Part shown: piece by piece, positions 28,318 through 50,086 of the stretch
Layout: each line of letters opens with the position of its first letter
Numbering within the stretch: position 1 is the first letter of the stretch
Assembly (NCBI GenBank): GCA_003138855.1
Contig: PLHF01000011.1
Location: 79,580 to 143,579 of the forward strand
From: Acidimicrobiaceae bacterium
GTDB lineage: Bacteria > Actinomycetota > Acidimicrobiia > Acidimicrobiales > RAAP-2
DNA: 64,000 nucleotides
Direction of reading: 5' to 3'
Position numbers and translations under genes: made by a program
The notes under the pieces: generated by a model
What the model saw: the letters and a program-made list of their open reading frames with translations, nothing else
Databases searched by the model: none
Told to the model about the DNA's origin: nothing

Positions 28318-28412
28318 AGACAACCTCGCAGCATCGGTCCGGCGGCCCCATGTGAACGGTGTGTATGCCGGACCGTCTATGCTCCCGCCCAACTCACCAC
28401 GGAAAGACCGAG

Positions 28413-28922
28413 ATGCCACAAGAACTCGACGAAGTCGAAGGGCCGGACGAACTGATCGAGGGAGACCTCGATGAGTTGGCGGACGACGACGACCTGATTG
28501 CCGAAGAGGATGCACTGGTGCTACCGGACGACGACGACGCAGACGTCGTCGTCGTGGAGGAGGACCTCGTCGAAATCGACGACGCAGACGTCGTCGTCGT
28601 GGAGGAGGACCTCGTCGAAATCGACCCCAAGGTACCGACCAAGGCCGCTGCAGCCGGCGAAGAGGCCGAAGAGGAAGAGGAAGAGGAGCCGGACGACGAG
28701 GACGTCGAAGCCAGCCTGGACACGATCCTGAAGGAGCGGTTGGTCGTCGAGGAGGTCGAGGACGACGAGGACGCCCCCGAGCCCGAGGATCGGAGCGGGG
28801 ACGGCGTGGAGCGGGTGCTGCCCAAGCAGCCCGGTGAGTTCGTCTGTCGGTCGTGCTTCCTGGTGAAGCACCCCAATCAGCTGGCGGACCGGAAGAAGAT
28901 GCTCTGTCGCGACTGCGTGTGA
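28413..28922 (+). CDS. DUF4193 family acidic zinc-ribbon protein
   Basis: Acidic N-terminal part; C-terminus FVCRSCFLVKHPNQLADRKKMLCRDCV. Confidence 0.8.
   Translation: MPQELDEVEGPDELIEGDLDELADDDDLIAEEDALVLPDDDDADVVVVEEDLVEIDDADVVVVEEDLVEIDPKVPTKAAAAGEEAEEEEEEEPDDEDVEASLDTILKERLVVEEVEDDEDAPEPEDRSGDGVERVLPKQPGEFVCRSCFLVKHPNQLADRKKMLCRDCV
28533..28622. repeat. Perfect 45-bp tandem duplication inside the DUF4193 gene (DDADVVVVEEDLVEI x2)
   Basis: Units 28533-28577 and 28578-28622 identical. Confidence 0.97.
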
Positions 28923-47068: not shown

Positions 47069-47673
47069 GTGCTGCGCCTACGGCGTCCGGCGGACCGGTC
47101 CCTCTCCATCGACGCACCCTCGAGTACGAAGCCTTCGACGCAGGGGACTCGCTGCGCATGGTCGGACGTCTTCAGGACACCCGGCCGTGGGCCCGGGACG
47201 GACAGGCCGTCACCCTCGTGCACGACATCGAGCTCCGGGTCACCGTGCGGATCGCCGACATGACCATCACCGAGTCCGCAGCCGAAATGCACACCTTCCC
47301 CCACGCCGAGTGCCCGGGCATCGCCCCCGCCTTCGCCGGACTTGTGGGGCTGAACGTGGCCAGAGGATTCACCCGTGAGGTGCAGAACAGATTCGGGGGG
47401 GCGAAGGGATGCACCCACCTCGAACAGCTGGCGCGTTCCCTGGGCCCCGCCGTCGTGCAGGCCGTCACGTCGGGGCGAGCGCTGTCGGTCAGCAGGGGCG
47501 AATCCGCCGACCTATTGACCGGGGGGAGCAGCCCCTGGACCCGGAACACCTGCCACATCTGGGCCGAGGACGGGATTGCCGACCAGAAGCTCGCCGCCGG
47601 CTGGCGTCCCGGTGCCGGGCCGTACCCCGCTCCCCGACTCGAGCACTTCAAGGCATCACCCCCGGAGCGATGA
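47065..47673 (+). CDS. DUF2889 family protein
   Basis: HRRTLEYEAFDAGDSLRMVGRLQDTRP...GCTHLEQLARSLGPAVVQA. Confidence 0.7.
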   Translation: MSAAPTASGGPVPLHRRTLEYEAFDAGDSLRMVGRLQDTRPWARDGQAVTLVHDIELRVTVRIADMTITESAAEMHTFPHAECPGIAPAFAGLVGLNVARGFTREVQNRFGGAKGCTHLEQLARSLGPAVVQAVTSGRALSVSRGESADLLTGGSSPWTRNTCHIWAEDGIADQKLAAGWRPGAGPYPAPRLEHFKASPPER

Positions 47674-48218
47674 GCAGCCGTCGTTCCGAGTCACCCCGGG
47701 CCGGCGCCGCTCGTCGATCCTCTGCATGGGCGGTTGCACTGCTGGTGCTGTGTGCGGCCGGTGCGTGCTCGAACTCGGGCACCGCGGTCAAGTCGCCGTT
47801 CTCCACATCGCCGCCGGTGCTCGAGCACGGACCCGTCGAAGAGGTGAAAGTGATCGGCATCAACGGGCTCGGCCCCGTACTGGTGGACGGCCAGGGGATC
47901 ACCCTGTACATGTTCGAGACGGACCGGCAGGGCTCACCGTCCCGCTGCTACGGCATCTGCGCCGTGCAATGGCCACCGCTGACCCTGCCGCCAGGCGTGT
48001 CCGCACCCATCGCAGGCCCGGGCATCGAGGCCTCGTTGCTGGGCACGGCTCCCCGGACCGACGGGACGACCCAGGTCACCTACAACGGGTGGCCGCTCTA
48101 CCTGTGGCCCCCCGACCGGTCCCCGGGAAAGGCCACCGGCCAGGCGCTCACCAATGCCGGTGGTCTCTGGTACGTGCTCGACCCGGCCGGCTCACCGGTC
48201 AAGACTCCGAGCCCATGA
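47670..48218 (+). CDS. Secreted lipoprotein with COG4315-like repeats
   Basis: LVLCAAGACSNSG lipobox-like; GQGITLYMFETDRQGSPSRCYGICAVQWPPL and YNGWPLYLWPPD. Confidence 0.8.
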   Translation: MSSRRSESPRAGAARRSSAWAVALLVLCAAGACSNSGTAVKSPFSTSPPVLEHGPVEEVKVIGINGLGPVLVDGQGITLYMFETDRQGSPSRCYGICAVQWPPLTLPPGVSAPIAGPGIEASLLGTAPRTDGTTQVTYNGWPLYLWPPDRSPGKATGQALTNAGGLWYVLDPAGSPVKTPSP

Positions 48219-48238
48219 CCGGCGCGGAGAATGGCAGG

Positions 48239-48505
48239 ATGGAGCGCATGGCCGATCGGAGCGTCAATTCGCGTTGGTCGATCAATTCGACCAACTCCAT
48301 CCTTTCGGTCGACTCGGAGGGGTCGATCCTGTCGATCGGATCGGTGGGATCGTTCCTCTCGGTGGGATCGATCGCGTCGGCAGCATCCCTGGGTTCGATC
48401 GGCAGCTTCCTCGGGGTCGCCTCGATCCTCTCCTGTGGGTCCGTCCTGTCGGTGCTGTCCTTCCGCTCGCGTCGCGGCGTCCTCAGGGCCCGCAGGAGGA
48501 ACTGA
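48239..48505 (+). CDS. S-x-x triplet-repeat protein, 88 aa, basic C-terminus, function unknown
   Basis: MERMADRSVNSRWSINSTNSILSVDSEGSILSIGSVGSFLSVGSIASAASLGSIGSFLGVASILSCGSVLSVLSFRSRRGVLRARRRN; Ser at 23/24 positions 8,11,...,77. Confidence 0.75.
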   Translation: MERMADRSVNSRWSINSTNSILSVDSEGSILSIGSVGSFLSVGSIASAASLGSIGSFLGVASILSCGSVLSVLSFRSRRGVLRARRRN

Positions 48506-49567: not shown

Positions 49568-50086
49568 TCAGCCGATCCGCACCAGTGACTCCTTGAAGTG
49601 ACGGCCATTGGCGACGTACCCGGCTGCCCCCATCCGGATGGCGGCCAGACTCGACTTGCCCGGGCGCACGGTGGCCGGCACGCCGACGGCGAGCGCCCCT
49701 GCCGGGACCTCCATCCGATTGGGGACGACCGCGTTGGCCCCGACGGTGGCGCCAGTGCCGATGATCGCATGATGGAGGACGACCGATCCTGAGCCGACCA
49801 GCGACTCGTCCTCGAGCGTGCAGCCCTCGAGGTGGGCCAGATGGCCGATCACGCATCCATCGCCCACCACGGTGGGGAACCCGGGCCCGGCGTGGATGAC
49901 CGTCCCGTCCTGCACCGATGTGCGGGCGCCGACGACGATGGCGCCGTGGTCGCCGCGGAGGACGGCGCACGGCCAGACGGTCGACTCGGCTCCGATGGTG
50001 ACGTCGCCGAGGACCACCGCGTCGGGGTGGACGAACGCCAAAGGGTCGATGCGGGGGGTCAGGTCACCGAGTCGGTAGATGGGCAT
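49568..50086 (-). CDS. Gamma carbonic anhydrase / hexapeptide-repeat protein
   Basis: FVHPDAVVLGDVTIGAESTVWPCAVLRGDHGAIVVGARTSVQDGTVIH. Confidence 0.92.
   Translation of the reverse strand: MPIYRLGDLTPRIDPLAFVHPDAVVLGDVTIGAESTVWPCAVLRGDHGAIVVGARTSVQDGTVIHAGPGFPTVVGDGCVIGHLAHLEGCTLEDESLVGSGSVVLHHAIIGTGATVGANAVVPNRMEVPAGALAVGVPATVRPGKSSLAAIRMGAAGYVANGRHFKESLVRIG

Follow-up and report, generated by a model that had tools for sequence, protein, structure and literature searches.

The described systems closest to the locus examined here share with it either a short-period repeat or a long uncharged core. HxsA, of the His-Xaa-Ser system (NF038313, HxsA4), is His-rich and carries Ser at every third residue throughout a long stretch. 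The left-handed beta-helix of Hexapep proteins is built from a short-period, 6-residue repeat of aliphatic and small residues. Intracellular functional amyloids and silk-like Ser/Gly/Ala repeats combine a tiny-residue periodicity with an uncharged, strand-favoring core and change in length by whole units, and oleosin-type proteins possess a proline knot and a very long uncharged hydrophobic segment with charged ends.

We compared these systems with a Ser-x-x array protein encoded in a 64-kb window (the whole stretch of DNA analyzed, 64,000 nucleotides from an Acidimicrobiaceae bacterium) and with 57 members of its family. The array shares the 3-residue Ser period with HxsA, but its core is hydrophobic and devoid of a His repeat (His at 17 of 4,113 core residues), and the similarity of 39 of the 57 members to the HxsA4 profile was weak (best E 1.5e-4, about 20 bits versus a cut-off of 55 bits). 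Relative to Hexapep proteins, the array has a period of 3 and 9 instead of 6, no strand was predicted for it, and 0 of 57 members matched the Hexapep model; a true Hexapep member, a gamma-carbonic-anhydrase-like protein, is encoded near the array at 49568-50086. The array has no homology to functional amyloids or silk-like proteins and carries a predicted membrane anchor in many members. It differs from oleosins in lacking a proline knot (Pro is nearly absent), in being less hydrophobic, in having Ser at every third position and in giving no Pfam match.

Database searches extended this picture. The window protein and the 57 members yielded no Pfam match at E 0.01, the 57 members gave only sub-cut-off matches to NCBIfam, and PHROGs returned one marginal match, in one member. 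A profile search of the PDB identified no informative relative, the best hit (E 0.005) falling on the C-terminus of an engineered kinesin light chain construct, and our literature search found no paper with the array motif or with equivalents described as every-third-residue or tail-anchored Ser-rich proteins. A sequence-only reading of this DNA had been unable to name a characterized family for the protein, and these searches bear it out. The function of the repeat family may yet prove ordinary.

Direct inspection of the window recovered the ORF at 48239-48505 (+) with the sequence quoted in that reading. From ATG 48248 it encodes 85 amino acids and terminates at TGA 48503-48505; Ser occupies positions 5, 8, 11 and so on to 74, with G56 as the sole exception, which reproduces the 23 of 24 third positions and the single Gly break reported previously. 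The chance level of this period was judged on the 64-kb window sequence itself: the next-best period-3 run of any residue elsewhere in it reached 16 of 24, and 15 simulations of the window under a first-order Markov model gave maxima of 10 to 13 of 24. The Ser codons are mixed (TCG 16, TCC 5, AGC 2), as had also been noted, and they vary in relatives. Basic residues stand on either side of a 48-residue stretch free of D, E, K and R. The features of the locus are summarized in Table 1.

Table 1. Features of the Ser-x-x array locus (window coordinates)
Feature	Position	Strand	Basis
COG4315-type secreted lipoprotein (Lipoprotein_15, PF03640), upstream neighbor	47670..48218	+	Pfam E 1.1e-22
-10-like box CAGGAT, 7 nt upstream of ATG 48248; candidate leaderless promoter	48235..48240	+	Sequence; layout in relatives
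Alternative N-terminal extension from ATG 48239	48239..48247	+	ORF
SxxS-array protein, 85 aa, likeliest start	48248..48505	+	ORF; start placement as in homologues; -10-like box; dN/dS
Ser-x-x array, residues 5-74, 23 Ser and one Gly	48260..48469	+	Period count
Nonapeptide core, residues 17-70	48296..48457	+	TRF 27-bp period; 9-phase composition; 9-aa length steps
48 residues without D, E, K or R (residues 25-72)	48320..48463	+	Composition
Borderline membrane segment IGSFLGVASILSCGSVLSVLSFR, residues 51-73, then basic tail	48398..48466	+	Insertion energy +0.46

At the DNA level the window array also shows a weak 27-bp periodicity, which TRF scored at 2.7 copies with 77% match; it corresponds to a 9-amino-acid protein unit that the earlier reader had passed over. 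The window units are SILSVDSEG, SILSIGSVG, SFLSVGSIA, SAASLGSIG, SFLGVASIL and SCGSVLSVL, and the 9-phase composition across relatives defined the family unit as the nonapeptide S-[VIF]-L-S-I-G-S-V-G. Length among relatives varies in whole 9-amino-acid steps. Elsewhere in the window, at 28359-28922 (+), a DUF4193 protein (Pfam E 5.9e-9) shows an in-frame tandem duplication of an acidic stretch, in which DDADVVVVEEDLVEI occurs twice.

Residue usage in the array followed strict rules. The Ser columns held S 875, A 15, G 14, C 8 and T 1 in the first set and S 1247, A 28, G 17, C 6, T 5 and P 4 in a larger member set; the residue following Ser is mostly V, I, A, L or F, and the next one mostly G or L. 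Since Thr is mutationally as near to TCN as Ala is, and TCN to Pro is a transition, the scarcity of Thr and Pro at these columns points to selection. Sequence comparison thus strongly supports the rule that every third array residue must be tiny, with Ala, Gly and Cys accepted and Thr very rare. Pro accounted for 6 of 4,113 core residues versus 98 of 2,038 residues in the termini. The longest stretch free of D, E, K and R had a median of 50 residues per member (family range 40-65), Kyte-Doolittle maxima were 1.5 to 2.0, and the Chou-Fasman means of the core were 1.08 for strand and 0.95 for helix. These rules fit a regular hydrogen-bonded core and speak against a polyproline-II form and against modification of the Ser hydroxyl. 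Glycosylation or phosphorylation of Ser is an unlikely reason for the period, given that the Ser columns accept Ala and Gly but almost never Thr. A Ser-attenuator leader peptide was likewise rejected, because the hydrophobic residues are also conserved and the downstream gene is not common to the copies.

Analysis of substitution rates across homologues, which the sequence-only reading had proposed, revealed purifying selection in the array frame, with in-frame dN/dS values of 0.33, 0.22, 0.34 and 0.43 in four lineages. In the same lineages dN/dS exceeded 1 in both other forward frames and in two of the three antisense frames; the remaining antisense frame, whose wobble position coincides with that of the array frame, gave 0.46 to 0.65, which we read as a mirror effect. 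In addition, TCN and AGY codons were both present in 12 of 20 Ser columns. The window ORF is a genuine protein-coding gene.

Translation of this gene may start at any of three in-frame codons. Of the two within the ORF, ATG 48248 is the more likely start relative to ATG 48239, because the CAGGAT box lies 7 nt upstream of it, as in relatives; the ORF described previously therefore stands, but its start probably shifts by three codons. In homologues, too, the start codon stands at this distance from the array, with a -10-like box 6 to 7 nt ahead of it. A start at a further in-frame codon, ATG 48215, which overlaps the lipoprotein stop (ATGA), is possible, and one relative (L008) has an apparent RBS-preceded start at a similar position. 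Among 107 non-identical array copies, the pattern [TC]AnnnT was found 6 to 7 nt before an in-frame ATG or GTG near the array in 54, versus 2 of 107 in each other frame, and this count is unbiased. A first count, which yielded a box in 48 of 57 members against 38 of 305 control starts, was partly biased, since that very feature had guided the choice of some starts. Nocardia copies carry an invariant tGTGGTAGACC at the box position, outside the strict pattern. For leaderless translation in mycobacteria, an ATG or GTG at the 5' end of the message is both required and enough (PMC4633059). From the placement of the boxes, the array mRNA is probably leaderless in many members.

The array gene proved widespread in Actinomycetota. 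A second copy in the window's genome shares 53% identity with the window protein; this paralogue (L002; contig C126, 4859-5086, minus strand) has its own -10-like box before its ATG and no lipoprotein neighbor. Relatives occur in the same genus and family as the window's organism, in additional families of the order to which it belongs, in other Acidimicrobiia, and in Streptomyces, Kitasatospora, Nocardia, Winogradskya, Nucisporomicrobium, Nocardioides, Terrabacter, Janibacter and Herbiconiux. A one-genome-per-species scan yielded at least 29 confirmed matches, all of them Actinomycetota among the matches listed. In a phylum-wide sample roughly 29 of 398 genomes matched, a figure from which members can be missing, because scoring was limited to the top few candidates of each genome, and to which unrelated simple GSVGSV repeats contribute some of the weak matches. 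The gene was present in 116 of 120 genomes of the genus of G294, which we read as Nocardia, and is thus near-core there; it was found in 9 of 31 sampled genera of the GTDB family of G294 and in 65 of 199 Streptomyces genomes. The names Nocardia and Streptomyces are attached to these counts through named loci with closely similar sequences, and are to that extent presumptive. Several Streptomyces copies are found toward the ends of the chromosome or are carried by large linear plasmids, annotated as hypothetical protein, and a DNA search with a Streptomyces copy retrieved plasmid copies that mostly bear the same annotation. A tblastn search of plasmids and phages with the window protein gave no match, an uninformative result because low-complexity filtering was active.

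Typical members comprise 80 to 130 amino acids with a core of about 5 to 8 nonapeptides, and the Ser period is kept from Acidimicrobiia to Streptomyces and Nocardia, in agreement with what the earlier reading would expect of a real family. Taken together, these comparisons strongly support the view that the window gene is one of a genuine family of small actinobacterial proteins that has gone undescribed. Four loci in other families of the window's order (L062, L066, L069 and L070) display a second architecture, near-perfect SILSIGSAG nonapeptides followed by a C-terminal membrane helix, which reflects either shared ancestry with the window type or convergence. Weak phylum-survey matches (L067, L076, L078 and L079) were plain GSVGSV or GSAGSA repeats, and five matches on viral contigs in IMG/VR (L136-L140) were long low-complexity GS-repeats in unrelated frames; neither group was counted as members.

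We then considered the architecture of the protein. The N-terminus before the array is short and mostly basic, and no N-terminal signal peptide was apparent. A membrane helix was predicted C-terminal to the array in 31 of 36 Streptomyces members, in 10 of 21 members of other lineages and in 0 of 17 Nocardia members, the last of which have an acidic hydrophilic tail instead. The window's clade has no membrane helix after the array, and the last third of its array is borderline for insertion (+0.46 in the window); in both paralogues of the window's genome and in several Acidimicrobiia the insertion score was only borderline or above. The core usually scored about +2 (typical windows +2 to +3) versus about 0 or below for the C-terminal helix, all by a re-implemented predictor whose checks were limited to glycophorin A and two homopolymers. 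These predictions indicate that the protein is probably often membrane-anchored, although not universally, since the Nocardia members have no predicted membrane helix. AlphaFold2 models from 41 and 57 aligned sequences were of low confidence (mean pLDDT 52.6 and 51.2, pTM 0.26 and 0.23) and contained helices and no strands.

These data bear on the shapes suggested in the sequence-only reading. A self-assembling rod is still possible. A polyproline-II form found no support, as Pro is nearly absent from the core and the third position is occupied by Ser and not Gly. The beta-solenoid obtained no positive support, there being no Hexapep match and no strand in either low-confidence model. A surface-binding peptide is unlikely, given that no signal peptide was apparent and that a membrane helix is predicted after the array in many members.

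The genomic neighborhood differed between lineages. In tblastn searches of the fetched loci, the COG4315 gene preceded the array only in the window's own Acidimicrobiia clade; at the Streptomyces, Nocardia, Micromonosporaceae and Micrococcales loci, as at the second copy in the genome, no homologue was detected close to the array. Among the loci compared, the adjacency to COG4315 lipoproteins, whose co-occurrence the earlier reading had proposed to test, thus does not extend beyond that clade. In Nocardia and seven other genera, the array gene is flanked by a secreted protein without a Pfam family and an Rv2525c-like protein, and its block usually also includes typA and genes for a GT87 mannosyltransferase, a pterin dehydratase and a peptide-binding-type lipoprotein. 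The arrangement is different in a ninth genus (L123). We take this block to correspond to the pimE-lpqW region of Mycobacterium tuberculosis. The secreted neighbor in the Nocardia-type loci (L040, L120-L122 and L124-L128) appears to represent a further conserved family for which no model exists. Clustering of neighbors revealed no partner common to all lineages, and RibD_C-like, TetR-like and LanC-like neighbors were confined to isolated lineages. A Streptomyces linear plasmid copy (L141; NZ_CP109366.1, 301405-301770; WP_164369710.1, hypothetical protein) is located about 0.8 kb from a LanC-family gene, a single case.

Several explanations of the array were weighed against this evidence. That it is no protein at all, and that a low-complexity DNA repeat or spurious ORF is seen while the signal lies in another frame, strand or RNA, is scarcely credible: the 27-bp period is detectable in the DNA and long antisense frames overlap many copies, but the selection data already contradict such a reading, with dN/dS lowest in the array frame and above 1 in all non-mirror frames, and mixed TCN and AGY codons, -10-like boxes before in-frame starts and an Rfam search of the array that gave no match argue in the same direction. 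It is highly improbable that the array is a modified-peptide precursor related to the HxsA system, with its Ser residues as maturase substrates. The common Ser period and the weak HxsA4 matches would fit such a precursor; however, the scores fall far under the cut-off, the core is nearly free of His, the model of the radical SAM maturase HxsB (TIGR03978) found nothing in the window's genome, and no conserved maturase gene lies beside the arrays, the plasmid-borne LanC case standing by itself. Also very unlikely is an accessory subunit of a COG4315 lipoprotein/DUF2889 operon, for example the surface partner of the lipoprotein. In the window and its nearest relatives the lipoprotein gene is adjacent and in the same direction, and a DUF2889 gene precedes in the window, but no COG4315 homologue was detected near the array in the other lineages compared or at the second copy, the array has its own -10-like box, and a signal peptide is not apparent.

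The remaining explanations concern the structure of the core. We tentatively regard as the best explanation that the array lies on the cytoplasmic side, tethered to the membrane and associating with itself. It would stay cytoplasmic at the inner membrane face, its copies would associate via tight packing of the Ser/Gly positions, and the protein would form a homo-oligomeric patch or filament there; the composition of the core suggests the self-association, and the biological role is one that we infer. The difference in insertion energy between core and C-terminal helix, and the presence of that helix in most Streptomyces members, favor tethering. Against it stand the AlphaFold2 models, helical instead of beta and of low confidence, the lack of a membrane helix in Nocardia, the borderline or higher scores of the genome's two paralogues and the lack of a partner conserved across lineages. 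Alternatively, the uncharged Ser/Ile/Val/Leu/Gly core could itself lie in the bilayer, as a helical hairpin, an oligomeric bundle or an oleosin-like inclusion coat. The 48 uncharged residues with basic residues on both sides, the Kyte-Doolittle maxima, the helices drawn by AlphaFold2 and the borderline C-terminal third of the array in the window's clade all agree with this, but we consider it rather unlikely, as typical core windows score well above the separate C-terminal helix, a 3-residue period would put Ser all round an alpha helix and explain no packing face, and the models are of low confidence. A beta-structured intracellular polymer that needs no membrane, of the functional-amyloid or flat beta-solenoid kind, with stacked nonapeptide rungs, Ser/Gly turns and hydrophobic faces, is similarly doubtful. 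Core composition favors strand over helix, Pro is nearly absent, length varies in whole 9-amino-acid units and an odd 9-residue unit would give the same pattern on both strand faces; nevertheless, AlphaFold2 (itself weak on amyloids) produced no strand, neither Hexapep nor another repeat domain matched, and the PDB match was uninformative.

A broader proposal builds on the tethered, self-associating segment: the Ser-x-x arrays of Actinomycetota may be intracellular, membrane-tethered proteins that self-assemble and make up a new class, with a nonapeptide packing code (a tiny residue at every third position) that is absent from solved structures and curated libraries, a prospect that we judge to be possible but on the unlikely side. 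Given the strict rule, with Thr and Pro nearly excluded, the array fold should be new or unrecognized. The gene is near-universal in Nocardia and syntenic in seven more genera, and it is also scattered over Streptomyces, Micromonosporaceae, Micrococcales and Acidimicrobiia, yet our searches found no family model, solved relative or paper for it. As the array of the Nocardia group shares a block with a PimE-like mannosyltransferase, it may be of relevance to the cell envelope.
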